Shown here in pieces: positions 13,076-43,003 of a stretch of 64,000 nt of DNA (the stretch's first letter is position 1; each line of letters starts with the position of its first letter). The position numbers were made by a program, and so were the translations under genes. The stretch is from the NCBI RefSeq assembly GCF_964204865.1, contig NC_135252.1, positions 18,559,383-18,623,382 on the forward strand, given 5' to 3'. This DNA is from Styela clava. Its lineage: Eukaryota > Chordata > Ascidiacea > Stolidobranchia > Styelidae. The notes below the pieces were generated by a model. It made no database searches. It was not told the DNA's origin and was given only the letters and a program-made list of their open reading frames with translations.

Positions 13076-14628
13076 ATGGTTTTTGAAGTACAAACTGGAA
13101 AAGTTATTTTTCTGGCAGTATTGCTCGCTTTGTTAGGACAATTCTGTACGGTGAGAGGCAATGTATATGATGAAAATTATGAAAGTTTAACAAATGGAGG
13201 TGAACAAGGTCTGTATAATATTCTTATAAATAAAGTTTGTTCATTGTTATTATATTGCATAGACGTATATGTATATATATCATATGTAGACACTTTTTTG
13301 CAAATTCTGACTTCTTACATTTGTTACTGAATGAGAGAAAATTTTGAAATATCATATATATGAAAGCAAAATAATTATATTAATTTTAACTTGATATATT
13401 GGTTAGTATATGTGAATATAGCTAAAATATATTTCTATAATTTCAGTGATTAACGAAAAAAAAGATTTTGCATTTGAGGAAGAAATATATCCTGAAGACG
13501 AAACCGAGCAATATTTTGTCATTGATCGAATGTCGAACTTTGCTGAAAAGGTAAGTTGTTTTTAAATGAGTTGCAAATCTCCATTTTTATTTTTTCTATT
13601 TATCCTCCCAATTTAAATATATTAAAATAATATAAAACGTCATTCAGGACATATAATATTTCAAGTAGATCATGTTAAATTTTGCAACATTTCCACAAAT
13701 TCAAACTTTAAATCAGATTAAATTTAAAATCCACCACGTCCTAATTTTAAAGGCACCTCTTAGGCAAATCTATGACTAGTATAGTTGATCTAAATGTTAA
13801 TGTTTAGGCATGATATAAATTGTTTAAGGACATTTGTAGAAAACTTCTTAGCTTAAAATTTTCAATCTGAATAGAAAAAAATATCAATTAAAAAAAAACA
13901 TTTGTACGATCTGACTTTGAAAAATAGTATCAGTTTTGAAAATTTCTATTATAAAATGCTAAACTTTGCTAACAGCATCCACATACAACGCATTGCAAAG
14001 AAGTTTATTGAAACCTTACTTCTAATTCCGGGCGGTTATTTAACTTATAACTTCAATGAAATGAATAGAAAATATGAAATATATCCAGTACTGCTGTAAG
14101 ATAAAAAATTCGAGTTCCTTTTTTATAGTATAAATGTACCAAAAATAAAATTTCTCTAAAATTCTACCTTAATAAAAAACCACGTGTTTGACGAAAATTT
14201 TCACATTCTTTTTTCAGCTGGAAAACCCCGAAAAAACTTACATCGAAAATGATGATAGTTCAACAAGACAAAGGAGAAGTTTGCCTAGGAAAAGACAAGC
14301 ATATCCTAAATGGTTCAGACATGCTTGTCGCAAACATTTTTGTGGATCTTACGACTGCAGTACTTTCCTGTATGCAAAAGGTAGGAAATTTTCTGTCGTA
14401 TTAGTTCGAGATAATTATTTCCTGTATATTTCGATTTGTAAGTAGACTGGAACTTGTAGAGTAGTAGTTCATGCAAGACTTTCCGGTTAGACTTGTGCTA
14501 GGATCATTTTTGGTTTATAATTATTTTACATTATTTCTAAAATACTTTCAGGAAAGATCTTGTGCAAACATTGTAGAGTTGCAGCATGTAGAAGAGGAAC
14601 TAAAATACTCAAAATAAGTTCAAAATAG
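13076..14628 (+). CDS. secreted cationic six-cysteine peptide precursor 1
   Basis: Four exons join in frame: 13076-13199, 13447-13550, 14218-14380 and 14552-14628 (155 aa). Residues 1-28 form a signal peptide (core VIFLAVLLALLG). Residues 29 to about 92 are an acidic pro-region. RQRR (93-96) is a furin-type site, leaving a mature part of about 59 residues with roughly 16 Lys/Arg and one Asp. A second basic site (RKR) lies six residues in. Mature cysteines follow C-x4-C-x4-C-x11-C-x2-C-x4-C; the last intron separates the first three from the last three. Signal, acidic pro-piece and cationic disulfide-rich core is the classic layout of antimicrobial peptide precursors, so secretion and membrane- or microbe-directed action are inferred. 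The spacing matches no defensin or ShK class I know. Exon 1 could instead end at 13208 (same phase, two more residues). Confidence 0.75.
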
Positions 14629-15933
14629 AACTGATGTGTTTCCAACATGTTTTCCTACAAAGACTACCACAAAAAAGAGATATATTTAGGGACCTGTCAA
14701 TAACTGTCGAACTTCAAAGAAATGTAAAAAGTCGTTTTCGTGACTTTTGTTTTTTAAATGTAAAATTATCAACACGATATTACATTTTATTTAAGTGACA
14801 CCAAAGTCAAATAATCTAATATGCGATAATCACTTTTTTTATACCTTAACATAAATTTGCAAAAAAATATTCTATTTTGACACATTTACTGAGAAGTATG
14901 ACTTGATTCTTCTGAATGGAGAAAGATTTATATCAGGCAAATATACAGCAATATTTAGTAAAAGGATTTTTATACTAGATAAATTTCATGGTAAGGCGAT
15001 GACGCTAAATGAAGTTTTCATCAAGCAAAATGGCGCCTGAATTGTTCTGCCAAGTGTTTTCCAGGGAAAATATATTTTTTACACACCTGTATTTCGAAAT
15101 TCATATCCTTTTATCAAAAGAAGCAACGGGTAATTTATGTATATAGCAATATTTTTTTTATACCTAGTCTTTATTCTGCAGTAGATTATAATAGCTGAGT
15201 CATTAAATTGTTTCCTTTATAATGATAGTTAATATATAATTCGTTTTATGTTGAGCTTTTGTAGTGTATATAGATAACATTTTCAATGAATAAGGAAGTT
15301 GCATCATTTTATTTATTGTATCACGTAAGGTTGAATAAACAGATTTACACTGATCAACTTTGTATAAGTCAATAAAGCATGGAATTATATTAGATAAAAT
15401 TGTTTCACGAATTTATATTTCCAACAAACAAATTTTAGAAAAATGTTAAAATATTGGGAATGCGACGTATATCTTTTTTATCATTGATTAATACCTATTA
15501 TATGTATGTAATATTTCTTGTTCAATGACAAATAAAGTTCTAACACATAAAATACTTTGTTTGATATTTAGTAGTAAATGTTTACATATTCCAATACATG
15601 ACAGTAGCTCTTAAGCAAAAATTTAAACGCTACATCGAACCTGAATTTTTTTCACTGTGCATCAACTTACTTGTCTCATGTTTGAAAAATATTCGACTGT
15701 TTTCAACAATTGGAAAAATTAATTTAATTTCTCTACTTCATGGAGTATATGCAAAAGAACATAAAATATTATAGAAACAGCATATTCAGGCGTAAGCAAT
15801 TAGAAAATATAATCAAGTCTTTAATTTAAAAGTGTTTCCTGATTTCTGACATACCCCATTACCTTATACGTACTCTTCTTCGAGTTGAGTTCATCTCATT
15901 TATAAGATGAATTCATTCAATAGTCATCTATTC
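14629..15933. other. 3' flank of the peptide gene, no further gene
   Basis: AT-rich. An AATAAA at about 15334 is one possible distal polyadenylation signal for the preceding gene; others occur at about 15.37 and 15.53 kb. No coding sequence seen. Confidence 0.35.
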
Positions 15934-16250
15934 TAGTGATTCCCAATGTGGGCAATATCGCGCCCCGGTGGGTGAAAACGATACAGAGGGGGGGCGAAAA
16001 GGCGATAGGGGGGCGATTTTGCGAAACCTGTTTTTGTTCAGCGCATCGTGAACTTGATTACTGTATACTCAGCGTGCTTTCCTTGGTTTGAATCACGTGG
16101 GTGATTATCACACGCAAAAGGGTTGTGTATCCCAGTGGTCGGCAAAATACGGCCGGAGTAAAATAATCTGGCCAGAACGCTTCACTGGATGGACCTTTCC
16201 CCAACCTTTGACCCCGGAAAATTGTTCCTATACTTTACTATTTTAAAATT
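15934..16250. mobile_element. two hAT-like repeat fragments
   Basis: AGTGATTCCCAATGTGGGC at about 15935, followed by a GC-rich run of GGGGCG-type motifs, resembles the left end of a hAT-derived repeat. At about 16131 a second typical terminus, CAGTGGTCGGCAAAATACGG, begins. This contrasts sharply with the AT-rich surroundings. The matching opposite ends and target duplications were not found, so both are probably truncated. Confidence 0.45.
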
Positions 16251-18480
16251 TTCGGTGCTTATTTTATGAGCGGTTTTGCGAGTTGTTGCCTGTAAAATGG
16301 GGTATTTGTTTCAAACTAATATTCTAATTCATACCATTCAACAATCTGTTTTTTTAAAGTACCGGTAAAGAATTTTAGCCTAGTCTACCACATTTATTTC
16401 TACACTAATTCTTGATTACTGTAATTAAACCAAAACTCATAGGAAGACAAAGTGATCATTGACTTATATTTAAATTTCCGAAAAACAACTAAAAACTAAC
16501 GAATATAATTCAAAAACGCGAAAATCCAAAGATCACCAACGCATTTATTCCCAAACACCTCATTGCTTTGAATTTCCTACATGGCATAATTTTTTTTTTG
16601 ATATCTTCCACTAAGGTGGGCAACAAAATTCTAACTGATAGTGCTGTTATTACATTGAAGTTCGAGAATGTTTCGTAATTTCAAGTCTGTGTGAAAGATT
16701 TGTTATTAAACAAGATACTTTGAAATAAAATATTTTAAGTTTATTCATGAACATTCTGAAAACTTTATATACAACATAGACTACGTACTACAATATAACT
16801 ATTTTTGTTGACGAAAACTTTATTCATGTCAATTTTGGTGAGCATTATTGAATAATTTAGGTCCAAAACAAACACCAATTATTATTGAAACTGCGGAATT
16901 ATGTTAAAATATTTTTATTGCATTTCGCAAGTGCTTAGTATTTATAAAAGAAAAAACATTAAAGTGCACAGATAATTATAAATATAAAAAAATAAGTAAT
17001 AAGTGATATAAATAAGTAATGAAATACTAGAATTCCAATGAAATTATATTCTAATATATATCGATGTAACAGCGAAGTAGAAACCAAAACTGCTCAACAG
17101 CATCTCAATTTTTCACTACAAACGGTTTTCCAATTTTTTGCCCTTAGCACCCGTTTATCTTCAAAATCTTCTAATTTTTAAAATCTTCAAAGATATAAAT
17201 GAATAGTATTTTTAAATTATCAAAAAAATTCTAAATTTAGATTAGTTTTGAAAAATTTTAGTCACAACAAATAAATATTTCTAGCTCGTGTTCCTAATAT
17301 TTTTAGTCCAGTTTCGAATAACTTTGGTCTCGCATATACCTGCACGACATTCGTTGTACTAACTAGCCATTTATATCTGCTCTTGATAATATGCCAAATT
17401 TTCTTCATATGCAAATTCAATAAATTTAAATTTAAGTTACTTTCCTTTCATTATTCAACTCAACTAGGTAAATCCCATTTGAAACTTCAATGATTATGAA
17501 TTAAAAAGTAAAAGAAAGTAATTCATTTTTATTCAAACAAAAAAATAAAAAAAAATAAAAATAAAAATACGTTACACGCAATTTTAGTGTGGCTTGATGT
17601 AACATTAAAAAAGTGCTTGATATGTTTTAATTAAAGGAAATCACGACCAACACTGTATAATGGTTATCTATTGGTGGTATCATCAAACTTGGCTTATTTT
17701 TGATAATTGACTGAAAAATTGGAGTTGCGCACAAAGCTCATGTGCTATTATGAGCATTTCATTTTAGTTTGTTTGGTAAAAATATAATTGAATATCGAAC
17801 TGACGAAGGAAGCTCACTTTCCCGTGCTGTTGAATTTCCCAAGTATGTCAGCACTCGGCTTTTAAACAATAATAGGGGCTTTCAAGGTATTAACCGCAAT
17901 TCGTGGAAGCTTTTTGAAATAGGCAATCCTCTTTACTGTATAAACATGAGTTATTTTTCAAGTATTATTTAGAATGGCAATCACGCACAAATGTCATTGG
18001 GAAGTTCTCTGTTTAGCATATGAATGCAAATAAAAACTGGAAAACTCTGGAAAATTCCATAACGTTGTTTTGATTTTTATATTCAATTTTTTTTTTGAAT
18101 TTTTTTTTTAACCATCAAGTGCTGGGATTACGGTAATATAACCGAATCTATTGCTATATGTATTGTCACTGCTCTCTATTATTTGTTTCTTTGTTTATTT
18201 ATTTTTTCTTTTTACTCACCTAAAGACCCGATGACGGAGCAATTTGTCCTTAAAAACCCCAGTCATTCCTGTATTACTTATTATTGAAACTTTTTGATTA
18301 CTCAAGTGAAAAATAAAATAAATCTGAAATTGCTTATAAAGTTCTATAATTTCTGTGCCATTTTTTCTAGACAGTGGAAGATTATTTCAAACTAATTCAA
18401 TCAAGAAATTGGATGGAAAAGTGCACCAATTTAGTTCGCAACACTGGAAATTCTTATGAATTTAAATGACAATCAAACCC
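16251..18480. other. AT-rich stretch, no gene seen
   Basis: Dominated by A/T runs, for example a poly-A-rich block near 17.53-17.57 kb. No supported coding sequence or repeat. Confidence 0.5.
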
Positions 18481-18484
18481 CAAT

Positions 18485-18805
18485 AACAAAACGAGAATAT
18501 CGGTCGGAGATCGAAGACTTATCGATCGAAACTGCGGTTTCGATTCATGACTGTATAGTGACACCGCGTGTCCCATCACTAATTAATTATTTAATAACTT
18601 GCTAATTATACGACATAAATCATCCAAAATCAATTGACTTCTGGTCCGAGATCTGATGAATGCACATGCAAAATTTGGAGCAAATTCAACTAAGCCTTCG
18701 TGAGATATCGCGTGCATCTAACAGACAAGCAGACAGACAAACGGACAAACAGACAAATACCTATCAACATACTTACCGATCTAAAAGATCGATAAGTAAC
18801 AATGA
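18485..18805. repeat. dispersed repeat, copy 1 of the ATCGATAAG family
   Basis: This shares most of its length with 48062-48372. Common blocks include GAGAATATCGGTC, GAAGACTTATCGATCG, GTGACACC.YGTGTCC, TCATCCAAAATCAAT and TTCGTGAGATATCGCGTGCAT. The segment is bounded by inverted ACTTATCGATC (about 18517) and GATCGATAAGT (about 18789). A short-period ACAGACAAG-like patch lies inside. It behaves as a non-autonomous transposon or SINE-like repeat; class undetermined. Confidence 0.65.
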
Positions 18806-21800
18806 TATTCCACTCAATCGGTTTTTAAGGACAGTAAATTGAAATAATAAAGGTCAATGTTACGGATTTATTTTTAAAATAGAAAAAATTCTTCAGTTTA
18901 TTAAACACTTCAACGATAACTTAATTCATTCAATATCTGTTATATATATATCTGATAAAGATTCCGGATTATATACAATTTGCTAGTGTTCCGTAATATC
19001 ATCCTCGTGTTAATAATATATTTATGAGTATTAATTGTCAATAGAGAGTGCCAATGAGACTTTTCTTCTGATTAATGCTTGGTCGTGTTCTATGCTCTTC
19101 AGAAGTTCAAGTGTACTTTGTTTACCTAAGTATATAATGGTAAGTAACGCTTGACTAAAGTTCAACGAGTACTATTTAGAAATTTTAAAACTCATTCAGT
19201 CGTTTTGAATTTCCCAATATATAAATAATGCGCGTATTTATCTATATGTGTTTATCCAACTGGTAAGGTAAACAACGTGGAATCTGAGTTCAATTATTCA
19301 TCTTTTAATTCCATGTTCTATACGTTTCAATTCAAGCTTTATCTATGACCGATAACAATGTTAGTATAATGAAATTTTTTCATGACATACAATGTATCAA
19401 TAAAATGTATTTCTCTCGTGGGTTGGATGATAACTAGTCACCATCGTGTCCATGTTTAAAGTTTTTTGTAATAGTATGACATGCCACAACAAAATTATAC
19501 TCTTCTTAAAGATCAAGTATTTTGATAAATTATAGCCTAACGATCCCATTTCTAGAAATATATAAATTGCTTTGGTAGGATTTTCGTAACGATGTTTGTG
19601 CAATCATCGTGGCCTCAAGTTAAACATAACTTAAGTTTATATATGATTCTTGTAGTCATAGATTTTTGGTAATGAATAACTGGGTACTCAATAAATTTAT
19701 ATACAGCCATTTAATGATGTGCATACTAGATTAAATTTCATTTGCATATGCAGCTAAAAATATTGGTATACAACTAATTTAGTGTAGTTTATGAATATTC
19801 TAATTGTAAGATTCTTAAAATTTGATTAAATTAGGAGAGCAATGGGATTTAGAGATTCCTACTTCCTATATTCCCAATACAATTCGTGTTGATTTTATCA
19901 TATGTCGTACACGGTTTTATCATATAAAAATCATATAAACATATTAAAACTATGAATAATTAATATGTACATTTATTCATACCATCAATAATAATCTAAT
20001 TACTTTATAGTAATAAGCTTTATAGTTTTGGATACATATTTCAAAACAAGAAGTTTTATTGTTTGCGGGGAAAAAAGGTAAAAAAATAACATTAAAGGTT
20101 TAAGAGTAAAAACAAGTTCGCAAAATAGCAAATTACTATTCTTTTAAAATTTAAAACATATTTTTACGATTTTTCCACAATATTCGGGTTATTGTCTTTG
20201 ATTAAATACCTATTCAATTTCAAATCAAGTTTTCTAAAAACAGTTATTCAGGAAAACTCATTTGTATGGTAATTTTTCCCGCTCGAAAACTGATATGCAT
20301 GTAAAAAAAATTGCCAGTTAAACAATAGGAAGGTAATTGAACCTCTTAACATTAACAAATTTACGGAAAATCACCTTCGTATTTTAAACGCGCTGGACGG
20401 TTTTGAATAAATAGTTCTTTTTTGACTTATAGGAAGTGGCAATACAGCAAACAACGGATACTCAATAGCTGAGAACTTAAATTATGTTTTGTGCTGGTAA
20501 GGAATAGATATTTGACACCCATGACTTTATTGTTTTTTAAAAAGAACTAGGATTGCGCATAGGAAATTAACAATATAAATTATTTTTCAGCGAAATTGTG
20601 TCACCAAATTTTTTTTTATATAAATTCCAAAACACTCATAATATGAATGCAAATATTACACTGATCAACAATGGCCGCCGATGGGGATATCACCATTTGG
20701 TGGTATTGTTGTTCAGTAAATACGCCAAAAAATTCACCGTTTTGTATTGAATATTTGTACAAGAAACCTCAATGAAAAACATTATATTTTGGGATTTTAA
20801 CGAACGATGGCCCATAGAAAAATGGCGCTTCGTAACCCTGGAAGATGCCAGGTCCTAATTGCGTAAACAAATTGAAATGTAATAACACGTGAAAAATTCA
20901 AGTAAATTTAAGGTAAAATTAAATTGTTTTCATTGAAAATTAAGAATTTGTTTCAGATAAGCATTTCTAATAGAATTATTTGAATATCCTTAGAAAGAAG
21001 AATTACAAGAATATTTAAAAATGAATATCATTGAAACTCATGATACTTGCTAAGTACAAGTTAAACTTACAATGTTTTCTGATCTATTGTGGACCAGAAC
21101 ATCCCCAGTACGGCCCTCTATTGAAATAAGATTTTAAGCCTTTTGTTCAATTGAAATAAGGCAAACATTGGCAACCCAGTGTATTGTACATTCATGCTTG
21201 AAAATAAATAAATTATTTCATCATGTTTTTGAATTTCCCCATTTTATATAAAGATCGTCAATCTTTTATACTTTTTTGTCTAATATTTTTTACAAAATAG
21301 CATTCTAGTTAATGTGGAGCCGACAAAACCAATCGAAAACGATTATAAATATGACTGCTCTATATTTGTTCGTCAGTCGTAAAACAGGGTTGTTGCGTGC
21401 TGTTCAAAGCAAAGCAAGCCGAACTTAGGTAGAGTTGGTAGATTCTAATATTTTCTGCTGTGAAACAGTATGTGCTTTAATATTTTAGGTATTTCGAGTT
21501 TGCTTTTCTAAATGTAAGTATATTGAATAATTAATTGAATGATAAGCAGTTACTACGCCTTTCCTTTAGACTCATTCTATTTATTCATCCAATATTTCTA
21601 TTCCTTTTCGACTGGGGGATGATGTATTTTATATTTTTAAGATGTAAGAATGCAAGAGAAAAGCTATACTTTTAGAGGCAGAAAATATTTTTTGATTGAA
21701 TTTTCTGTAATACCCAGAAAATGGTAATAATAGTGAATCCATGCTGAAGCATGCAATGGTATTTATTCCGACAAAGCAATATTTAAAGACAAGTAATGAG

Positions 21801-22839
21801 AAATATTTATTATTACTTAATTCGTTTGCTAGAATAATAGATTGCGAATAAAGGAATATCTATCTAACAATCTAAAATATGTAGAATTTGGGGTCTGAAT
21901 ATGATTGTCTTATGCGGCAGGAAATGCTTTATAATGTCCAAAGAATGAGAAATATATGCTGCTTAACATTCATTGACACAATTTTATTGGTTATTTGGAT
22001 AAGATGAGGTGTTTCGACTCCTATCATGTTCCATAACAATAAGGAATCAAAAATAGCTGTTAAAGTTACACTTTATTGTACTATATGATGTTGTTATCAT
22101 AAACTTATGTTCAAGATAATTATAAAGATAATTGAGTAAAAATAACAATTTTGCATACAAGGATTATGATCTTACTTACATCCTCGCCCACCGTATTCTT
22201 AGTCTTTCTAATAACATTTTTCCTAAAAGTAACGCTTTTCGTATATAAAATTTTTTGTCTGTTGCGTTTTTTGAGCTGTAAAACACTTTATGACTCTAAA
22301 AACTTTAATTTCTGGGTCATTCATTGACACACGTAAAATTTTAATTCAATTCCTCTTCTATTTTTGTGCTAATTATGCATATATTGAGATGCAGAAAAGT
22401 TCAAAACTTAATAAATATCAATTTCCAACATAATTTTCTTATTGCAAATTGAATATTAACAGAAAGGGGAAAAGGGGGATCGGTTTATGGATAGAAATTT
22501 TTTCATAGTTGTACTCAGACAATCTATATAGCTTCTAAAAAGATAAGTTAACGGGTAGCAATAACAATGGGCTGCAATTCAAATAAAAATGAATGAAAAG
22601 TTCAAACTGTGAGGTTGTACTTCCGTGAGAAACAGTGAAAGTTGCTTTTGTTTTCAAATTTGAGATGTTTTGTCTTGTTGTGCAATTTACAGTAAATTCT
22701 AACGCAATCTTTTTGATGAAATTTGTGATTTTAAAGGTCAAAGAAAATAAATTCCCAAGAGTCTACATTTCATTTAGTAAATTCTAATGAAGTTTTGTTG
22801 ATTTTTGATTCATCTAACGGAGTGTTTCCGACTGGGAAA
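18806..22839. other. AT-rich stretch, no gene seen
   Basis: No ORF with a recognisable product and no linked splice junctions. A slightly GC-richer patch at 20.65-20.86 kb has no identifiable structure. Confidence 0.45.
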
Positions 22840-25091
22840 ATGTTGAAATCGTGCAAAGCGATAAACCGAGAGCGTGGGTAAGCAATTTCTTTCATCCTAT
22901 TCTTAAACGATATTGTGGAGAAGTAGTAGTTTTTACTTGTTGATGAACAAAATCTTCTATGTTTGTATGAACAGTCACATTAAAAAAAATAATTTTTATA
23001 TGAGTGTTTAATACAACGTACCCCAACCGGTGAACAGTTCCTCCGAGGAAGGAGTTTTGTCGTGTTTGTGGAAAATTTTGCTTTGTAATTGTTTATTTAT
23101 TATTATTAATATTATTATACGTGTTCATGGACATATTTTAAAGTACCTAAACTGTACAAAAACTGGTTAACAGTTCGATGCCGACGCAATATTTGAAACT
23201 GTAGAGTGAGCATACTTTTGTGAAAAATGGACGAATAATTCTCAAATTAGGTTGTTGTCAGCAAAGCTTTATTGTCATCTTATCATTCCAAGAATGAACC
23301 TATTTATAAGTTTGTAGAATGATTTTTACTAAAATAAGAACATTGGCCACATTTGTGAACCTCAGTACGGCACACATGCGGCTGTTAATTGAATACATGC
23401 ATACAAAATTTTACCAAATTTGGAGTGAAACAAGCCCCACCGACCGCTAAATGTGGGAAATTGAGATATGAGTAAATTATCTCCCATATAGGCACGTCCA
23501 TCTTAAACAACCGTTAATTTGACTGTAATTTGACATTATGCGCAATAGCCTGTTCTTTCGCCGATCATCTTGTTGAAACGTTTCCTTCGACACGACTACT
23601 GACACATTTTCATGTCACGAATAAATATACCATTGCAATAATTTTATAGGAATTTTAAAATTTAGAGACCATTATAGTAATATTGTATTTACAAAGAGTT
23701 TGAATGTTTCTACCGCCGAGTCAGTTGCATGGCAGTCGGATCAGGCCACGATGCTAAAGTATTTGTAAAATTACATATATTTTTTACAGTATTACCAAGT
23801 GCAAGTTGTTGTCTATTGCGAGCAAATTGAATACTGGGTTAAGGTGAGCTTGAATTATCACGTTTATAAACAAACCAGTAAAAGATAAATATTGAAGCGT
23901 CTCAAAGAATAAATCATTCTTGTCTAATCCCACGCTATAGATCATTTTGCAGAACAAAAAAAAATTGTACGATTACTGACAGATCTCTTTTGTGACTGAA
24001 ACCACTAAACTAAAAAATAATAAATATTTTGTCTGACCAAAATCATAGTCTTGGGCGCGTAGACGTCGCAAGTTGAAAATTTAGGTTTAAAATTTCATAC
24101 TCACAACCTCACTTACGTTATTTCAAGTTATTTCAGGTTAGCAATGACGAAACGGAAAGTTATCTAAAAAATAGTATATTATTGTGATTCGATGGCTGTT
24201 TGTCTATAGAAGTGTTTGAGGTGAAGACATGAAAACGCCTTGTACAAAAAATAGCCGGTAATTGTCGTTGCGTGATTCCAATATGGTACTAATATTCAAA
24301 TGAAGTAATTAAGTTTACGGTGTTCACTTGTAAATGCGATACGTCAATATTAATTTAATTATACCTGGCACGATTCCTTCTGTATGAACAATTTTAAATA
24401 TTTCCTTCTGTTCAATTTGTAGCGACTATGTTTCACATATCGTGCTTGACTAACCATGAACAAACATTAAAAAGTTGGGCTAGTTTATGAAAATAATTCT
24501 GAAAATCTTATAATAGCAAATATAACCTGCTTATTAGATAGATATTAGGATTACGTTTGGAGCCGTTGTGAATAAAATCGAAAGCCGGTTAGATATCCCA
24601 AACATTTTAATTAGTGTTCCGATATACAATAACATCGACACATAATGGCCGGAATGTTTTCAGTCTAAATATTGTTGGGCCGCTTAAGAAAGGTCTACTG
24701 TATTCTTTGGACCTTACTTTCCCCTAAACCTCAGCGGCATCTAATTCAAATTTCGTAACCTATTCTTGGAGGCAAAACATTCACGAGAATTGAGGTTTTG
24801 CGGGCAGCAGGGCTCGACTTTAAGAGTTTGGTTACGCGATTGAGCAAGAGTTACCTCGCCCACGTTTTTTCACCTTCACTTTTAATTCGTATTATCTATC
24901 ATAGGTTGTGTCGTATGTAAGCCAAATGAAATTTTGGTTTTTTAGCAACAGTGAAGTGCAGTTGCGAGAAAAATGGTAATGTGAGTGAAAATGTGGTATT
25001 GGCATGACTTAGTTTTTATTTTGCTATTCATTGCAGAAAGGGGGAATTCAAATATATCCGGGAAGGTTATGCTCAGTCATTTTGCATGCAG
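22840..25091 (+). other. weak candidate gene of three short exons
   Basis: Three segments with good splice signals join in phase: 22840-22877 (ATG...CGTGG|GTAAGC), 23790-23843 (TTTTTACAG|...AAG|GTGAGC) and 25037-25091 (CATTGCAG|...CAG|GTAAAT). Together they give 49 codons ending open at phase 0, the last piece reading KGEFKYIREGYAQSF. I recognise no family. The second and third segments are also open in another frame, which weakens the case. No terminal exon was found. Confidence 0.18.
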
Positions 25092-25930
25092 GTAAATGGA
25101 TTTGCCAAAGAATTTGCTAATTATAAAGGATTGCATTCGACACAAGCGATCTATAATTATTTAACAATGTGTATTCTGCAATTACGAGTCGTGTATCAGA
25201 AAGAATGTATTTAAACCTTGTATAGTTGTGAAAAGCAAAGACAATTTTGAAGTATCTGAAAATGTTAATGTGAAATATTTAATCATACTAACATTTAGAA
25301 TTTAGTATAATCATTATATCACCTGAAAATATTTTTTAACATCAATAACGCACGTTTGACTGTAAAGACTATTTCTCAATAATATTTTCATTGCGACATC
25401 ACACCCAGGTATGCGTTATGCATTTCAGTCACGCAATAAATAAAGTTACCGGTTTATGGAAATGCGAACTGAGAAATAAGCGACGTGTCGTGTGTGACTG
25501 GCGATTGACAAAGATTAGGTTCTGTTGAGAACGTTGCAGCCACACACGACCCTGTTGTACCTTGTTTACTTTACTACAAGATATAAAAATTAATATCATG
25601 TTCCCATGGAGCTTCATAGGGACTGAACAGTTTAATTCAGTTCTATTTTAAATTGTATAACATTGAATCTTGCTTGCTTTTTTCCATCATAATCTGACCA
25701 TAACAATAATGACAGGAGGAATTTTATGATCTAACTATCGACTTCAGAAATTCTGTATTTTAATTTTAACCTTTTAGAATTTTTAAGATTGCGATTGTTC
25801 TGCCTCGCTACAGATGGTGAACAAGTTTCCCGAAATTTTAGTTTGTTGGCTGGAAAACAACACATTTTTTGGTTAGGTTGTAATCTTGTGCGGTATCCTG
25901 TAATAACTATTTAGGTTTTTACTAAAAAGT
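25092..25930. other. no gene seen
   Basis: A minus-strand 62-codon ORF at 25.43-25.62 kb has no recognisable product. GTCGTGTGTG near 25.49 kb is mirrored by CACACACGAC near 25.54 kb, a small hairpin of unknown meaning. Confidence 0.4.
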
Positions 25931-26060
25931 GGCCGCTCCCGTAGTATGTGAACCAAGATGGCGGACACCGGAACATAGTATGTGTAGCAGGTTAAAGTTA
26001 GGCCATTATTTCAATTCCAATTTTCGGAGTTCGGAGACTAGCCAAGTGACTCCTGTAACA
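25931..26060 (+). repeat. dispersed CTCCCGTAGTATGTG family, copy
   Basis: It begins GCTCCCGTAGTATGTGAACC, continues with AAGATGGCGGACACCGGAACA, then GTATGTGTAGCAGGTTA, and ends near GACTAGCCAAGTGACTCC. The same block order recurs at 53.9 kb. The AAGATGGCG...GTATGTGTACCAGGTTAG core also forms the 66-bp tandem unit at 4.6-5.05 kb. Confidence 0.75.
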
Positions 26061-27435
26061 TTTGTGCCTGAAATTGAGGCCTAACCTGAATCTTTTGCTT
26101 TCCATATTATTGACCTTGAAAAATAGGATTTCAATTAAAATAAAATATAAGAATATTGGAAACTATCTCATTGTATTTAAGTTCATTCCCCTTTGTAAAT
26201 TTACCGGTTATCGATGTGCATTGTCAGAGGCGGGAATATCTTTTTAATAAGCTTTGTATTACCTTTGTATTGTGGCGCCGAATTGTTCCAGGAGTCAGTC
26301 CTTGTAAATTTCGATTTGAACAAAAAAACATCAAAAATTTGTCGTGAGGTGCTCAGTATTGAGGAATTCAGCATATTATAATTTATAATATTTGTTCAAT
26401 AAGTAAATATGCTTTTGTAGTGATACCAAGTATGAGATTTAAAATGCCCAGCATGAGTGACAGTGATTAAATCGTTTGATTTGTTATATAGGAATGTACA
26501 GAATCACGCGTTTAGGAAGTCCTAAATGTGATAATATCATTCATCAAGTAAATCACAAGGTAACAAGAGAAACGTTTCAAATCATAACTTCGAATTTATT
26601 GGACATAAAATGTACATATTAATCGTTTTCTTATTATGTCGTTGTTGTTATTGTTAGTATTTTTCTTTTCCATTTACTTCTGACTGTGAAAAAAACGGAC
26701 CTCACAATTGCTTTGAAATTTTTAGTGGTTAAAAATCGTATTTTTCGCTAGGCTATTATACTTTTATTTCAAAAATTTTTGTGGGCTCTATTGGTTTTGT
26801 TTTGTTTTGTGTGCGATAGCGTCATCTAAATTAAAAATGCGCACCTTGTATTGTTTTCGCGTTTGCGTTAGCAGTCAGGCGAAGTCGAGAAGAGTCTGGT
26901 ACCGGTATAGTCTACTGTGACAGATTGCATACCCGAACTACTTTGTTTTGGTTTTTGTGTTCATATATTTAAGCATCGTTCTCTTGTGTTCATTTCATCA
27001 TTCAATTTTTTATCTGAATTTTTGGTTCCTCTTATCAATTAGTTTTTTGGAATGTTTGAATAAACCTGAATACTCAAAATTATTTTAACATGATAAATTA
27101 TTTTAATATGGTAAATTAAATATTCTAGAATTTGATGACCGCAGTATAGAAGTAATAAATGAAAATGATAGAAATAAATACTAAGGGAGGTAAATAATAA
27201 AAGACGACGTAAAAATACAATTTTTTTATAAAAGACCACCAGCTTAAAAATTGAGACAGAAAAAAAGGTTGTTAATTCTATAGTGTTAGAGAATAATACA
27301 TTACACTGAATTAGGGTACATTGGGTCGCCATTGTGAGCGTATGACTCGGAGAAACACTGCCCAATATCAAACTTTTGTCGCCAATAGATTGTCTGGATA
27401 AGTCTATATTAATCCAAATTAAAATATTTTATGTT
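26061..27435. other. no gene seen
   Basis: The patch 26815-26945 is less AT-rich and contains several CpG but shows no ORF, tRNA-like box or repeat partner in this window. The remaining sequence is AT-rich with chance ORFs. Confidence 0.4.
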
Positions 27436-27439
27436 AATA

Positions 27440-27713
27440 TATATAGGGTGTCCATAAAGTTGCAAAAGAAAGTTGCAATAAAATTGCAAAGGGAATTTAT
27501 CGACACCATAAAATATTTTGACCTTTACAGATGTATTGAATGTAAAATAAATACCAAATAATTAATATTAAATAAATAAATAAAACATAATATTTGAATA
27601 TTTAAAATATTTTTATTAATTAAAAAACAACAAACCTGGTCAAAATTTATTGAGGTCTGACTTTATAACAAAATTGAAACTGTAAAGGGACTCCATGGAC
27701 ACCCTGTATATAT
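27440..27713. mobile_element. mariner-like MITE, copy 1
   Basis: The left end reads TATATAGGGTGTCCATAAAGT. The right end is its inverted counterpart, with CATGGACACCCTGTATATA. The ends abut TA dinucleotides, as expected for Tc1/mariner insertion, and GGGTGTCCATAAAGT resembles known mariner termini. It is about 270 bp with no transposase. Its body is related in inverse orientation to 53003-53200: both carry CAATTTTGTTAT.AA.TCAG, AGGTTTGTTGTTTTTTAAT and CGATAAATTCC.TTTGCAATTT. Confidence 0.75.
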
Positions 27714-29721
27714 GTACAAAGATAATTTGTATGCGCATATGCAATGGCTGAAATTTGTTATATTCAATCTACGAGGAAACGTACTGTTTTGACAAGGTTC
27801 ATTACTAATGGTACAAATATTTACAATAGTTGTCAGCCATTTAAAAACCATATTTATGAATTTAAAATTATTGAAATATTTGCCAATTTTGGTAAATATA
27901 CAATAAATAAGGTCATGGTAAGTACAAATATAAGCAATTTCACGAAGGCAATAATATTCGAGTCTGGAAAAGACCTAAAAAATAACGGTTTTAAACAAAG
28001 TTTGACCCATCTCGAACACTCTTGCGCTCGTTGATTATATATTTTTGAATGTAATTCTTAATTAGTATTTTATTACTACGTGTTAGATTAGCTTTTATGA
28101 ATTAGAATTTCATAAGTATTTGAGACTGAAAGAAAGTCAACAGCTTCAGCAGAACGTAGGCACTTGAGTCAAGTTCAAGATATTGTTTTCGCAAAACCAA
28201 GATTATGAATTCGAAAGGTTTTGGTAAAACTTTTGAACGGATTTAGATGAAACTGACTCTCTTGTAGTGGTTCAAATAGTATGGCATTTCAACTTCAAAA
28301 CTCAAAATTGATACGTACGTTCTATTTATCCGAACTTTTTGACAGCAGCACAGAATTTTTAACTTTTTTTGTTTTTGAATTCCACATTATAATTTCTATT
28401 ATTTTCAAATTTTCAAAATGAAGAATTACAAATTCTTTTTCTCGGTCTATGTTATTCACCTATTTTGCGTTGAAACAAGGCAGACTCAAATTGGATTATT
28501 AAATGATATTGAAATATCAGATGATCATTAAAATAGGATGTGTACAGCTGTGTAGAATTGAAGATTCCCCTTTTCTTTGGTGTATTAGAATGTACGTCTC
28601 TTAAAACTGTTTAACCGTTTTGCTTTACTGGCTTAAAATCCAGATAATCGACTTTACATAGGTTTTAAAACCCATTATACGGATTCCAACTTGAATAGCA
28701 ATGAATAGCATTTAACAAATGTGTAAATATTTGCTGTCTGACAAAGATTGTTCTTAAATTCTAGTCTACAACGCATAATAATTGTTCGGATCCAATGTGT
28801 AAGAATTTAATTTGGTGTTTTGCATGTATAGCGTTAAACGCAATGTATAGTGTAGTTGATGCGTTACTTTTTTTTCGCTGACCAAATAATTTATCTATCA
28901 GTCATTCTAGGCGCTACGCTTAACTGAGTATAGATTTTCATTAACATCCAGTGTTATTATTATTGCTTTTTTTAATGTTATTTATAATTTTGTAGGCATA
29001 CGAAATTTCCAGTTCCCCGGTTTGAATCTAAGAGCTTCAGCCAGTGGCGCCAAAATAGTAAGATAGAGCTGTCTAACTACTAGGCAATCACACTAAGAGG
29101 TTTTAAAAAAAATGTCAACATGTAGATATGACGCTAATAGCCTTATCAACAGATGCATGTTATAATACTGTGAAAAACTTATAAAAAATGGATTCAGAAA
29201 TATAAGTATGGGATCATGTTATATAATATATATTTCTTTTTATAGTTTTAGTGTTTGAGAGAATATTAAAATTGAAAAAAAGTGTTTAATCATGAATTGA
29301 TATAACACTACTTTTTTCAGGCAATAATAAAATATACACTACTGTCACTCAATTATTTAATCACTATAGCCACCATGTATCAATGGAAAGTGTTATACCA
29401 AAGCAGGCTCTAGTTTGGTTTATATATTTGCCCGCTTTAACGTGAAGTAATCCTTTATTTTAAAGACGAAAACAATCCAAATTAATTGTAGATAAGAGAA
29501 TGTTAATGTTGTAAGAATGGGCCATATTAGATAGTAATTTGCTTGTATTCAACTCAAATAACCTAACCCTATTTGCCCATAATGAACTGCCAAAGTTTAA
29601 CTCAGCCCTCTTTCTTCTTCCCGTCATTCTCAAGTATTTCAACAACAAATTTTATTTAAATAACTTAATGAATTAAAACATTATCTTTTCTTAGTGTAAC
29701 ATTAATTTTAAACTAAACAAT
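27714..29721. other. intergenic, upstream of the second peptide gene
   Basis: AT-rich with chance ORFs such as 27744-28034 (+), which has no recognisable product. No repeat or RNA gene seen. Confidence 0.45.
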
Positions 29722-32700
29722 ATGAAGACCACAAGCGTGATGACTCAATTTCTTGTTTGTATGTTGCTATACGGTCTTATTCTGCAGTGCCAATCTTCAA
29801 AAATATCAAAAGGTAGGTGATTTCATATATGCAAAATAACATTTTTCAAAAAAAAATTTGAGAAAGAAAACTCAAAATACTACAACTACAGAGGTAGTAA
29901 AATGAAATGTTTAAAAATATATATTGACGTTTACCAAATATGATTCACTCAGGCAGTGGTGCAAGTGAATATCGATTTCAGTTGTTTACGTATTTTGACC
30001 AAACAACTCAGTGCTTGTTTTCTTGCTGAAGCAAAGTACGTACACATTTGTGGTATTAAAAACATGGCTGAATATTTATAACTAAAATAATGAGAAGTAA
30101 AAATATTAAAACCAAGTTGATTTTTTATTTAAATTGAACAATTTTTGTTTTATTATTTTATTTATATATAATATTATCATTGAATAATGAATTGAAAGTA
30201 AATTACAGAAAATTTTTCACATTATAATACAATTGACTTGTTCAAGTTTTGTAATGCCTAGCTGATTTTTAATTTTCAATTTCACTGTATAATCTTTCAC
30301 TAAAACCATAAAATGCTCACTCGAAAGCTAAAAAACGATTGCTATTTTAGTATATCAAAATAACAATAAACAATGAAAAATTGAAGACTAGCTAAGATTG
30401 CTACTATAAAAATATTCCATTGTAACTAAATGGTTGTTGTCAAATGCATTTGTGATATATTACATAATTTGAACTTGCGTATTTTTTGCAGAACAAATCA
30501 AGCTGGAGCAGTTCAAAAACGAAGATAACACGTTTCACTTGATGGAGGTAATTTGATAATGTTTGAGATAAACTTAAAACCAAAAATGTTAATGCTTTCG
30601 TACTTGCATCAACCGCTTTTAAGTCGTAGGGGCTATCCAAGTAATTATCAATATATGCCTAACGATTTGTTAGTGTAAAACGATTTTCTGAGAAAATACA
30701 AAATCGCGTCAACAACACTCATATAGAAGCATATAGTGTTCCCCAAATTCGCAAATTTTCATACATAATTTTATTTAAATTTTCTTTAGATCATTCAGGT
30801 CTGAATAACCGAAAATTACTCATGTGAATATATTATTTTGCACCTATATCAAATTAAACCCTTTAAGACATCTAATAATACGTTAGAAATAATTGTTTCG
30901 ACTAAAAATTATTGTGCAAATTTACGATAATATCCAACTATGCTTGCGGTATGTTTTGCGTATATTTCTTGATTCAATACATATCCTTGAAATTCAATTT
31001 TTGGAATTATTTGATATACGACTTATACTGTTCCCGGTATTACACTTTATTGCATATTAGCAACTTCATATTGGACCAGGGTATGAAATTTCCCTATACT
31101 CTGTAATATAATATTTATTATTAAATGAGCCGCATGGTTCTTGTTCAAAATACCACAAAAATCATCAAAGTGCATACCGATATGTTTTAACGAAAGGGAA
31201 GCAATTAAACGTAATAAACATGTGCAAATATGAGCCTGTGTTTTATGAGTAAGTTTTAAATATATATCAGAATACCCGTGTATAAGTGATATCGTTAAAT
31301 TCGTATTATGTGGTTACTAAGCTATCAATACTTATGGCATCCATAAAAACATCGATTTATTGGCATTTCTGAGGAGGGGAGGGATATATTGTTGTTGCAA
31401 TTCTCCTGAATACACGTTGGGTAATCATCTTTAACATTAAATTATTGAATCTAATCCTAGTTTTGCCACACTGTAATAATTAGAGTCGTTACCTTACAAT
31501 GTACATATTCATTCAATACAGGCCGTTTCCAAAGAAAGTATAAGCAAACAATTACAGGCTTGAAACAAATTTGTCAATTGGTTGATTTAAAACCCTCAAC
31601 AGGATTATACAATAGTTTTACAGTTCTCCGTTAGGTTCTATTAAAAAAAACTTGAAATTAAAAATAGTTGAACAATATTAAAAATTATCATTTCTTCTTT
31701 GCTCAAAATAAGATATGCTCAACAACATTCACCATGCAATTTTTTGAATATCTTAAGTAGACGTGGTAACGGAGATAATTTTTCATTAATAGCAAAAGGT
31801 TCTGCTTTTATGTATACAAAACATTCTGAACTATTTTCGGTTTTGTATTTTATGGGGATGAGAGTTTTGGTTATCGGAATTAGAATATGCAGACAACCAT
31901 AAACCATAATAAGTTAAGAGCCAATTACCTAAATATGTTTATCTTTAAAAAAAATTGGGTTTTCCCTGAATTAGAAAATTATTGTTTTCGAAAAGTGGAG
32001 TATAATTCTTATAAATTTCAAAGTTGGTGTATTGGATTTGACAACATTTCATTTTGAAACACAAAGTTGTGAGCGAGTTCGCGAAAACGGGTTTCCAGAG
32101 TTGACTTCGTCCACAAGAAAACATCCGTTTTCAAAAGTCAAATTATTTTTTAAGAACACCTAGATTGAAAGTCTGAATTAAATTATTAAATTATCACATT
32201 ATTGTATACATAAGACCTACGGGAATATATTTAAACCTGATGTAAATTTTTATATTAGAAACGATCAACAAATTCAGATATTGAAACGTTGGAAGATTCA
32301 GAAGAACACAGAACGAAAAGGAGCCTCAACTCGTTTTGGCGATACATTTGTTCCAAAAAGCCTTGCTTGAGAAAATGTCGAGAATATCGTCGACCCTTAG
32401 CACGTAAGTTTACTAATTGCCTAATCAATAATCATTATTATTAGGTAAAATTAAGTATATAAACAGGAAATACTTAAATTCGGAAGATTTTGAAAAATTG
32501 CACTAAAGATCTCACCTATGTTTTAATTACGATCACTCCATTACACATTAGTTCTGGTTACAATAATTTGCTGAAATAATATACGTTGAGCATAGACCGG
32601 CTATCCCATTGAACACCAACTATTAACAGAGTCGTAGTTTAATAAAGGTATTTCTTGCTAACAAAGGTATTTTTTTCAAACATGTTATAACTAATTAGTA

Positions 32701-32811
32701 ATTACCATCTCATTAACAGGTCCTTATCGTGGGAAAAACCGTCTGGTGAAATGCTGCAAACGAGGTATTCTGCAAATGAATTATTGCAGACTGTATGAAA
32801 TGGTGATGTGA
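29722..32811 (+). CDS. secreted cationic six-cysteine peptide precursor 2
   Basis: Four exons join in frame: 29722-29812, 30492-30547, 32259-32403 and 32720-32811 (127 aa). Residues 1-26 are a signal peptide (core FLVCMLLYGLIL). A short Glu/Asp-rich pro-region follows, with KRST early and RTKR at 67-70 as the likely final cleavage site. The mature part is about 57 residues, rich in Lys/Arg, beginning SL and containing SFWRYIC. Cysteines follow C-x4-C-x3-C-x19-CC-x9-C. Intron phases (1, 0, 1) and exon contents match those of the gene at 13.1 kb: signal; acidic pro-piece; cleavage site plus Cys 1-3; Cys 4-6. The two are therefore likely ancient paralogues despite low sequence identity. An antimicrobial or other secreted-peptide role is inferred, not shown. 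The adjacent CC recalls beta-defensins, but the other spacings differ. Confidence 0.72.
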
Positions 32812-35680: not shown

Positions 35681-38600
35681 TCACTGTTTTCTCCAGTTTT
35701 CGCAGTTTTTATCCATCACGCCATAAATCCAAAATAGATAATACGAGACCTGCAATGGTAAGACGTTTATTTTGTAAAATGATTTATTTCACTTTTCTAT
35801 TTCGGTGCTGTTATTATATGCGAAAAGTTCAGACGCGTCGTCTGCCGTTAGGTGGAGAAAAAGCCTTCCGTGAAGTGCCAATGGGTAGGTGGATTTATTG
35901 AGATATTTCAAAGAAATAAATAGGAAAAAAAGTGATTCGCATAATTTATTCAAGGACGTAATATGAATCTAGGTAATAACATAATAAGGATTATAATTAA
36001 ATGGATTTAACATTATGAAATCATTCCATGACCATGAGTATAGTAATTCCATATTACGCCATTTAAACGTCTTACCTGCGTGTATATACCCGGTAGCTTT
36101 TCTGTCCCACACTTTGCGGCGCCAAAACTTATGATACCTTGTAACTGCCACTGTCCTGGCGCGGTGGGTGACTCGCATATTAAAGGACCGCCTGAATCAC
36201 CCTGAAATAAAGTATACGTAGTTAAACAAAGTTTTAGATTTCGCCGGGAAAAATTTTGTGTGTAAAACTTTTATTATTAGTTTCAAACTTTGGCGTTTTT
36301 CGGTTTATAAATTTCAATCTTTTTAATAATCCTCTTTATCAGCATCTGGTGATAGGCAAAAGCTACCATTTTTACCTCAGTTTTTTCGATTAATTGATTC
36401 GAAATGCTGTGTTTTTATCGTCATTTGTGCAGAACAGCATATAGTAGAAACAAAACTTCAAAACAATGTATTACCAAAAGTTTCTAACATTGCAGCGTCA
36501 CGATTACATATGAAAAGTAAAAAAAAAGTATAAAAATCCAAAAACGTACCGTGCACGTATCTTGTCCCAGTTCTCCTCCCGCACACAAAATCATTTGAGT
36601 TTGTGAAAAAAAATAAGCAAACTTACAAATGTTTGGCGAGACTATTGGAACTGTTGCTTCTTTTAATCTGTAGTTAGTTGGGCCCATGCCTGTTTAAAAT
36701 TTCAGGAAATATTTGTTCCTTTGACACATAAACAGATTTTCAGTATAGTTTTTATTTGCAAGTAATTAGGACATATGTTCATTAATTAAAAATGTAGAAT
36801 AAACTAAAGGTAAATTTTTATTCACATTTCAAGAATTTTTTAGAGAAAGTTTAGGTCTGATATTTTAAAATTTTTATTGACTCTGAATTATTTCTTCATT
36901 TACAAGTTCAGAAGGCAAATCGCAATTTTTCATACAGGTTTGTTTTTAGTTAACAACGTTATCCTCAATTCACCTTTCTGTCTTTCTGATAAGAAAACTA
37001 CACTGTCACTTTTGAACAATGTTGCTTTCCATCTGAAATTTTACACCTATTAAATAACCATATGCTATAATTGTAGCCAACATCAAAATTAGAGTTTGAT
37101 GGGGAACTTTTCATAAAGCATTTACGGCGCTCCAGAAGTGTATGTATCAGTATAGAGATAACTAATTTTGTTCGCCTACTGTACATCACGTTGTATAAAG
37201 GAACTGAAGCCTATGGTTATATTTACTTGGCAAACACAGACAGTCCCCAAACTCGTAATAGAACTAAAATAAGGAAAATCAGAATAAAATTATGGCCTAA
37301 CCCTAACCTGGTAGTCCATATACACTACAGGAGTTACCACATTTACAAAATTAACAATTTCGAAAAAGCGCTTCACCAATATTTTAGCTGGATTATGATT
37401 TACTATGTAAGTGTACTAATATAACTTACCCACAGTGTCTCCCCAACCGGCTACTCGGCATTTTGTTCCTGGTTTTGGTGCACTTACCCCAAACTGTGGT
37501 AGACATATAGGTCGAATCTTTGGTGTTAGTTTCATTGGTTTTGGAAGTTTTATAAGTGCAATGTCATTCGTTCGTCTCTAGAATATACAAATACATATAA
37601 TTTTCAATTATCAAGATTTTTCAAGATTTCTCTTCCTATTTTTTTTTCTTCGAATTATTGGATCATTGCATGCTTCAATGAACTGTTTTGGGTTACAGAA
37701 GGTTCGTAATGTATTAATTCATGAAACATCACTAATAAATACTCTAATTTAGAAAATAAGTACGTAGTGAGAAAACAGTATACAACTTTCACTTCATTTT
37801 GGGGGCATACTGTTAAAAATGATATAAAGTAACTTGAGTGCAAATTTAAATTACCTATCTCTGCAAACATATTATAAAACTGTTCTATATTTGAAGCTTC
37901 AATCGTTGGTTTCACGAAAGTCGCAGACATCACAATCGATTTGTTTGATGAAATCAAACAACAACAGCTTCAGGTTTCAAACCACGTGTACTTTCATTAT
38001 ATTGTTTATATAGGAAATATTTAATTTACCTTCAAGTGATAATCTTCGTGTATTGTGACCATGCTGTCATTGAGTGCAAATATCCGAACTGTTTTGTGGT
38101 ATCCCGTTTTCACATATCTTCCTATGAATAAGGTTCTTGCGATTGAAAGACTAAACACAATTATGTTAATATGTGTGAGAAGAAAAAAATAAATAATGAA
38201 ATCTTTTATTAACTTTATATAAGATTTTGTTTTCTGTTTGTTGATTTATAAAAGTTGATTATGCAGTTAAATGACAAATGTTTTTTATTATCCCGACATT
38301 GGCAAAAGCGTAATATGGAAACTTACTCAATTGCAGTGTTGTTCGTATTAAGAAAACAATGCGCTGCTGTAAGAACCCATGATCGGCAGATGAGAGTTGC
38401 TCCGCATTGAAGCTTTCCTCCCGACCATATCGCTGCCTAGAAATAATATAAAAATTTATTGATATAAATCAATATATTGAAAAATTACAAAATATTTACC
38501 CTGAATAAATAAAACCAGGTTCGGTTTTCAATTGTTACAACAAACTATTTGAAGTCATTTTTATTTTGTTGCAAAACAGTGTGCAATAAATGCATGTGGA

Positions 38601-40189
38601 CATTAAACAATAAGAGATCTAATCTAAGCATTACAGAATTTATTTACATTTCGTAGGTTTGTTAAAAGTGAGTGAGTCATAAAAACCTTCGACTAATGTA
38701 TATCGATCCCCATATTTTGCGATCGGACACATACACACACATTATCATATTTTATCGAGTTTCTTTTATCGCTATTACGACTTAGACAAAATTACTTTTT
38801 CCCAAACTAGAAATGAAATATTCACAAAGTTTGTGACATAATATACAATTGTTGGAATAGCGTCAGTGTACCTATCATACAAAGAATTCCATGCCAATAG
38901 TTTTCGATGTAAAATTTATAACGTCATAACTACCTTCTGCATTGACCTATACTTCTTCAGGTCTAGAATCAATCAGTATTTATTAGCGTGTAATTGTTAT
39001 AATCTTTTATATTTCAAGTATCTTTAGACATTTATTTCGGTGGTCGCTCTTACTTCAACTCAGAAATCAGTCTACTTTGAATCCGAGTGAGTACGCGTGA
39101 CATTTGAGAAAATTATTATAGAAAATGTGTTGGCCAAATTAAAAGACTGATTTGCTTTAAAATAAGATATATAATCACTGTCTCACCATCCATGGCCAAG
39201 AGTTTCTTTCAACTTGCTTTCCACCAGCAATCTTTTTAACGGGTTTCCACGTTCCTCCGCAAGATGACGCTGAAGAGGTTACTTCACATGACCAAGGACA
39301 AGTGGCAGGCTTGTAGTGATTTTGTTTCAAAATTTTAAAATATATATTCAAATAATGTTTTTCATGAATTTTTAATTTCATATTATTGGCATAATAAAAT
39401 CCAATTTTCTTCGTCACAATTTGTATTATGTAAATGTCGCGCCTTTTTAAACAATTGGTCACAGCCGATTACACCAGAACTGTAGAATTCAACATTAAGA
39501 CAATTTTCAGTAATAGGTGTTTGAAATCAAAAAAAATTTCGCAAATACCAAACTCAAGTTTTGGCGTTTTGCTGAAACTCAAATTATAGAGAAACGCAGT
39601 GATATACAAAATCTACTACAAAATAATTCTATTGCAAATTTTATTGCTTTCAAGAATACAACACGAGAAAATGTGATTTGAAACTGCTGAAAAAATATTG
39701 GCCACTCACAGCTGATGTCGTTGTTTTCATCGTAATTGGTAAAGATGTGGTATTCACTGAACATTAATTGTTAATATGTTAACTCGTCTAATGCCCAAGC
39801 ATTCACAAATATCACTTCTTCTTTTCAATTAAAATGAAAAATGTGACATATTAAAATAAAACGACGTTGTCAATATAAACAAATCTTATCTATAAGCGAA
39901 CAATATTATATTGAACTAAAACTCACCGAAATTTTTTGAACTTTGTGAGTGGACGTAATGTCTAAAAATACACAAGATGAATAAGCGAATTATTCACTAA
40001 TAAATTTGGTAAATGTATCGAATACAAATAAAGTTTTGATAAATATGATAAGATTTATATCTGAAGATGTAAATAAATTCTCTTGATCTAATTCTGACAG
40101 TTTTAAAACAAAAAAAATTAAAAATTTGATTCTCACCTGTTCAATACCACGATCAATAAAACAATAGGATAAAGTATCCATTTATCCAT
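35681..40189 (-). CDS. secreted trypsin-like serine protease (S1A)
   Basis: Ten exons join in frame on the minus strand: 40189-40137, 39961-39927, 39756-39710, 39309-39187, 38436-38327, 38150-38030, 37577-37430, 36689-36550, 36201-36076 and 35749-35681 (323 aa). A signal peptide (core [12 protein letters not shown]) is followed by a short Thr/Ser-rich pro-region. Three cysteines (49, 53, 62) precede the activation site VKK|IAGG (Ile72). The catalytic triad is intact: His112 in TAAHC, Asp168 in NDIALIKL, Ser262 in GDSGGP. The residue six before Ser262 is Asp (S1 position 189) and the pocket glycines are present, so cleavage after Lys/Arg is expected. Trp215 of the usual SWG is Phe (SFG), and an extra Cys103 sits where Ser is common. 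Cys62 probably tethers the pro-chain to Cys188. Substrate unknown; digestive, immune or propeptide-processing roles are possible. Single-domain with a short pro-region; no CLIP or CUB domain seen. Confidence 0.95.
37120..37337 (-). repeat. dispersed CTCCCGTAG family, long form, in a protease intron
   Basis: Reverse-oriented copy of the element also seen at 42792-43003 and 47168-47390. Shared blocks, read on the minus strand, include CAGGTTAGGGTTAGGCCAT, GACTGTCTGTGTT, GTAGGCGAACAAAATTAGTTA and a CCAGAAGTGTA..-type terminus with GGCGC. It sits in the intron between protease exons 7 and 8. The 77-codon ORF across it is a by-product. Confidence 0.75.
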
Positions 40190-42791: not shown

Positions 42792-43003
42792 CAGTAATCC
42801 GTAGTATATGTAGCAGGTTAGAGTTAGGCCATAAGTTTATTTCGATTTTTCCTATTTTAGTTCTATTGCGGAGTTCGGCGACTGTCTGTGTTAGCCAATG
42901 AATATACCCTATTCCCAGTCCCTTTACACAACTTGATGTAAAGTAGGCGAACAAAATTAGTTACCTACATATTGGTACGTACACTTCGAAGCGTCGTTAA
43001 ATG
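42792..43003 (+). repeat. dispersed CTCCCGTAG family, long form
   Basis: Begins near CCGTAGTATATGTAGCAGG and continues through GTTAGGCCATA, GAGTTCGGCGACTGTCTGTG, CACAACTTGATGTAAAGTAG and GCGAACAAAATTAGTTACCT. It ends near ACTTCGAAGCGTCG. Collinear with 37120-37337 (inverted) and 47168-47390. Confidence 0.75.

Follow-up and report, generated by a model that had tools for sequence, protein, structure and literature searches.

Two small genes with predicted signal peptides lie on the same strand of a 64,000-nucleotide stretch of the Styela clava genome (NC_135252.1, positions 18,559,383 to 18,623,382; this whole stretch is the window below), and they pair a common exon plan with two different cysteine spacings. 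This raises the question of whether they descend from one ancestral gene and, if so, what kind of peptide such a gene plan has been carrying. The conceptual proteins of both match NCBI predicted proteins from Styela clava residue for residue (gene 1, LOC120342022, 158/158 residues; gene 2, LOC120342024, 127/127 residues), both of them annotated as "uncharacterized." Each gene has four exons, with intron phases 1, 0, and 1 in both and GT-AG borders at 6/6 introns. An initial annotation made from the DNA letters had placed the genes on the same strand, 15 kb apart, and this was borne out (plus strand, separated by 15,093 bases); the starts, ends, phases, and exon contents that it proposed also match the exons delimited here and the full-length NCBI models. 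Among the papers listed by searches of the open-license literature, none has a title or abstract opening that describes the pair, and LOC120342021 to LOC120342025 are named in no paper found there.

Exon by exon, both genes run from a signal peptide through a pro-piece to a cleavage site followed by SL and three cysteines, and then to three further cysteines. Exon 1 of gene 1 (13076..13208, plus strand; splicing and translation, NCBI identity, hydrophobicity) carries the start codon, the signal peptide, and the first ∼16 pro-piece residues and ends in phase 1. Exon 2 (13447..13550, plus; splicing and translation) encodes acidic pro-piece and is entered in phase 1 and left in phase 0. Exon 3 (14218..14380, plus; phase 0 in, phase 1 out) completes the pro-piece and then carries the furin-type motif RQRR (14266-14277, plus), the SL predicted to start the mature part (14278), an aromatic-Trp-Arg motif, and Cys1 to Cys3, and exon 4 (14552..14628, plus; splicing and translation, NCBI identity) supplies Cys4 to Cys6 and the stop codon. 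In gene 2, the signal peptide occupies exon 1 (29722..29812, plus; NCBI identity, hydrophobicity), which ends in phase 1, and a short, mildly acidic pro-piece occupies exon 2 (30492..30547, plus), again phase 1 in and phase 0 out. Its exon 3 (32259..32403, plus; phase 0 to 1) opens with an extra KR in the first two codons and continues with the pro-piece end, the furin-type motif RTKR (32310-32321, plus), the predicted mature start SL (32322), the aromatic-Trp-Arg motif, and Cys1 to Cys3; exon 4 (32720..32811, plus) encodes the adjacent Cys4 and Cys5, Cys6, and the stop codon. The signal peptides of both genes are predictions judged by hydrophobicity, with signal cleavage placed by eye.

We scanned both strands of the window for this plan, defined as a signal exon, a phase 1-to-0 exon, a phase 0-to-1 exon that includes [KR]R and at least three Cys, and a terminal phase-1 exon with at least three Cys, at thresholds chosen so that gene 1 and gene 2 both pass. 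Those two genes were the two loci recovered, and the same scan gave 0 loci in each of 20 dinucleotide-shuffled windows. As gene structures, therefore, they are no accident of chance.

The predicted precursors agree in layout more than in detail. Both pro-pieces had been described as acidic; with charge counted as K+R minus D+E and the basic cleavage site included, the description fits gene 1 well (net −12 over 71 residues), while that of gene 2 is only mildly acidic (net −2 over 45 residues). The predicted mature parts are strongly basic in both cases (gene 1, 59 residues, net +15; gene 2, 57 residues, net +14), each with a pI of 10.3 and six Cys. Both would start with SL, as first proposed, if cleavage occurs at RQRR and RTKR; the gene 1 start is an assumed one, and the sequence QAYPKWF, six residues further on, is itself preceded by another basic run, PRKR. 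Gene 2, for its part, has the further KR inside its pro-piece. Six-frame translation of the window contains 44 R-X-[KR]-R strings; SL follows at two, and these are the sites of gene 1 and gene 2. Judged by sequence features, each gene encodes a small, strongly cationic, Cys-rich peptide within a secreted precursor.

The initial annotation had called the cysteines scrambled, and this is true of one half of the mature part. With Cys loops of 4-4-11-2-4 in gene 1 (array C-C-C-C-C-C) and 4-3-19-0-9 in gene 2 (array C-C-C-CC-C), the exon-4 half is rearranged, whereas the exon-3 half is nearly kept (4,4 versus 4,3, a closeness equaled by 5,080 of 200,000 random spacings). A phase-1 intron splits the six cysteines 3+3 in both genes. 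The Trp-aromatic cluster reported just before Cys1 is present in both as an aromatic pair that includes Trp, followed by Arg, spanning −5 to −3 relative to Cys1. When the two mature parts are shuffled with Cys fixed, an aromatic/Trp pair plus Arg turns up at these positions at rates of 0.064% and 0.116%, a test that is post hoc, as is that of cleavage site plus SL. The pattern would suit a styelid-specific family of defense peptides in which diversification proceeds half by half: exon 3, with the cleavage site, SL, the aromatic-Arg motif, and Cys1 to Cys3, would be kept, exon 4, with Cys4 to Cys6, would be rebuilt, and the disulfide framework would thereby alter between paralogues around a fixed phase-1 intron. 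This is an extension of the data that we put forward only tentatively.

That the two genes share ancestry is, in our judgment, likely, on grounds of plan and position more than of alignment. Alignments of the mature parts are not significant, with 0.11 to 0.36 of shuffles as good (a range that varies with alignment mode, with the length of N terminus used, and with Cys held fixed or left free), and neither is an exon-by-exon comparison taken as an exon-anchored sum (0.11 of shuffles as good when free, 0.30 with Cys fixed). The full-length alignment is marginal (0.012 to 0.060 of shuffles as good), and its score appears mostly to mirror the order of signal, pro-piece, and basic part; for the pre- and pro-parts aligned together, the fraction of free shuffles doing as well is 0.10 in global and 0.42 in local mode. 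BLASTP of one protein against the other gives 18.1 bits (E, 0.07 to 0.09), and DNA comparison of both loci returned only AT-rich matches at background level (best E, 5e−4). A MAFFT alignment of both proteins (28% identity) was set aside because it misplaced the cleavage sites. The intron phases alone are weak evidence too, since agreement of all three has a probability of ∼0.04 under assumed phase frequencies and phase-1 introns are common after signal peptides.

Figures of this kind, along with the different Cys frameworks, are compatible with the pair being unrelated genes for small secreted peptides, simply neighbors that share their plan by chance or through the phase-1 bias of secreted peptides. 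We consider this unlikely in view of the joint match in exon number, phases, exon content, six Cys divided 3+3, charge, strand, and neighborhood, to which the scarcity of R-X-[KR]-R-SL in the window and of the aromatic-Arg motif among shuffles can be added. Paralogy is the best reading of the four-exon plan, the phases, the strand, the neighborhood, the cleavage-plus-SL string, and the aromatic-Arg motif taken together; the paralogous pair of the initial annotation stands on its architecture, position, and motif, while alignment does not make a convincing case for it.

The broader proposal of a fast-diverging effector family is unsupported beyond the pair. In protein searches for relatives, the query was the only protein recovered each time, out of 49, 4, and 2 candidates; these searches detect a relative only where exact 5-residue words are shared and therefore would miss relatives as distant as gene 1 is from gene 2. 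Within the window, neither a paired-exon scan nor a four-exon chain scan, with a signal exon required, gave a third locus of the plan. A stricter signal-exon scan of the window missed gene 1, and looser lists of exon candidates, which include one trypsin exon and several ShK matches, were set aside by eye.

What the window does hold is one doubtful decayed fragment (17097-17258, minus strand; tblastn, Smith-Waterman), situated between the genes and resembling gene 2 residues 27 to 89 with in-frame stops (38% identity, 28.5 bits). Its Smith-Waterman score of 62 compares with at most 59 for gene 2 shuffles (n = 100), and the best gene 1 shuffle also scores 62, equal to the fragment match. The resemblance crosses two gene 2 exon junctions without introns, and tblastn reports it at an E cutoff of 20 and not at a cutoff of 1. 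Queried with gene 1, the window yielded no comparable fragment (77/100 shuffles as good). Because of the stops, the run-through of exon junctions, and the equal score of a gene 1 shuffle, the fragment may be what is left of an additional copy or may be chance, and we did not count it as a family member.

The proteins have no Pfam match at E ≤ 10, so that the mature peptides are not assigned to ShK, and a PDB sequence search gave no meaningful relative. The predicted structure of gene 1 (pLDDT, 57.6 overall) has no Foldseek match with E ≤ 0.001, and that of gene 2 (pLDDT, 43) is unusable. Rfam and tRNA scans of the window found none.

Several other features of the neighborhood are recorded here in their own right. 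LOC120342023 is unaccounted for and, going only by NCBI numbering, might lie between 14628 and 29722. Exons of a trypsin-like serine protease adjoin gene 2 on the minus strand (36016-39468), with Pfam Trypsin matches on that strand at 36016-36270 (E, 4.1e−11) and 38329-38436 (E, 2.1e−07); an open reading frame at 39178-39468, also minus, has an IAGG-type activation start by eye and is without a Pfam match when searched alone. Cys-rich exons lie at 50821-54777 on the plus strand, where ShK matches 54664-54777 (E, 9.2e−09) and, weakly and below the cutoff, 51653-51760 (E, 0.012), with none at 50821-50925; these exons, a Thr/Pro/Glu-rich stretch at ∼54200, and an exon at 46736 that resembles a signal may all belong to a single secreted protein with multiple ShK domains. 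A minisatellite at 4590-5052 comprises 7 copies of a 66-base unit with an open frame on both strands, and the unit recurs in diverged form at ∼25940 and ∼54860. Dispersed repeats of 77 to 82% identity link 18491-18804 with 48062-48368 and, as a second set, 37116-37344, 42799-43006, and 47163-47387; these are perhaps mobile-element remnants.

As to function, we lean toward an old tandem duplicate pair encoding furin-activated, secreted, cationic six-Cys host-defense peptides, since a small, basic, six-Cys product preceded by a signal, a pro-piece, and a furin-type site has the anatomy of such peptides. The gene structure, the charge, the cleavage motif, the Cys count, and the identity with NCBI models are observed for both genes; the common origin, the cleavage, the disulfides, the expression site, and the antimicrobial action are what we infer. 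In outline, the signal peptide would bring the precursor into the secretory path, and the pro-piece, which is acidic in gene 1 and mildly acidic in gene 2, would silence the cationic portion in storage until a furin-type protease cut after R-X-[KR]-R and released the 57- to 59-residue peptide with its net charge of +14 or +15. Three disulfides would hold the mature peptide, which, made in blood cells or epithelia, would most likely bind and damage microbial membranes. The idea of a neutralizing pro-piece meets an obstacle in gene 2, whose pro-piece hardly neutralizes the charge. Ascidian precedents are at hand: turgencins are cationic six-Cys peptides that inhibit bacteria (PMC7024374), and the propeptide of botryllin, from the styelid Botryllus, is stored in morula-cell granules, where its authors say furin is found too (PMC9966394). 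An NF-κB-type consensus has 6 matches in the window, and the 1.8 kb preceding each start codon contain none of them, which speaks against the defense reading; an AP-1 consensus has 13, compared with 7.0 on average in shuffles, 5 of 100 of which attain that number.

The main functional rival takes the two paralogues as secreted signals, that is, hormone- or growth-factor-like ligands whose basic sites would serve prohormone convertases. A peptide hormone would be built in just the same way, from a signal, a pro-piece, a convertase site, and a mature part rich in disulfides, and the additional KR in the gene 2 pro-piece and the second basic site of gene 1 would suit one; yet the proteins lack a Pfam match at the E ≤ 10 threshold, hormones do not usually carry a charge of +14 or +15 in fewer than 60 residues, and ligands that have a fixed receptor are not usually so poorly conserved from copy to copy. 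We judge this reading improbable. Lineage-restricted Cys-rich secreted peptides also occur as tunic or egg-coat, gamete-recognition, and deterrent peptides, and the paralogues might have a role of that sort (tunic or egg-coat structure, gamete recognition, or deterrence); we rate this as quite unlikely, as it comes without positive evidence and the strong positive charge favors a membrane-active role.

Read as host-defense peptides, the two products can be set beside several known systems. Alpha-defensins share the layout of signal, anionic pro-piece, and cationic six-Cys mature part with three expected disulfides, and differ from the Styela pair in Cys order and spacing. Gene 2 stands apart from the turgencins, with its adjacent Cys4-Cys5, its 4-3-19-0-9 loops, and no residue similarity (0.57 to 0.87 of shuffles as good). 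Gene 1 comes closer: turgencins A and B of Synoicum turgens are, like it, cationic, with six Cys and none adjacent, and their loops (3-4-8-2-3 and 3-4-7-2-3; PMC7024374) resemble its own to a degree matched by 1,077 of 200,000 random spacings. However, turgencins A and B share CXMAC and KKXGG, both absent from gene 1 and gene 2, and are shorter than the gene 1 mature peptide; they have disulfides 1-6, 2-5, and 3-4 and an amidated C terminus (PMC7024374). Residue similarity of gene 1 is nil to turgencin A (shuffles as good: 0.27 when free, 0.55 with Cys fixed) and marginal to turgencin B (0.03 and 0.11), and because of this and the missing motifs we do not file gene 1 with the turgencins.

The CRP-I peptides of Mytilus serve as an analogue in that they diverge while the gene plan stays fixed. 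They have a signal, a propeptide, a dibasic site, and a six-Cys mature part, as in the Styela pair, and likewise one gene architecture with variable Cys loops, in gene clusters (PMC10138031). They differ in having a highly conserved signal and propeptide, whereas the pre- and pro-parts of the Styela pair have diverged, and in placing the mature peptide always in the fourth, final exon with the array C-C-CC-C-C, whereas in the pair exons 3 and 4 each encode part of it (PMC10138031). Within Styelidae itself, styelins and botryllin are cationic host-defense peptides made from a prepropeptide; the propeptide of botryllin lies beyond the mature C terminus, whereas the pro-piece of the pair precedes the mature part (PMC9966394). 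A second ascidian type, the St-CRPs (18 to 19 residues; PMC13208793), differs from the pair in size, charge, and Cys order, and the sea-urchin strongylocins offer a further instance of a signal-prosequence-six-Cys layout, with Trp at the mature start (PMC4805251).

Going by its sequence, the pair is an ordinary kind of object, namely, secreted cysteine-rich peptides that probably have an antimicrobial role, and it is mildly unusual in one respect, in that the disulfide framework seems to vary by half-domain. To our knowledge, the known defense peptides of Styela clava, the styelins and clavanins, lack a six-Cys core. If the reading is real, it would add two unstudied cationic six-Cys precursors to this species and would offer a simple case of gene architecture outliving sequence similarity; homology searches would therefore miss such peptides, and finding them would call for searches based on the arrangement of exons and on motifs at the cleavage site.
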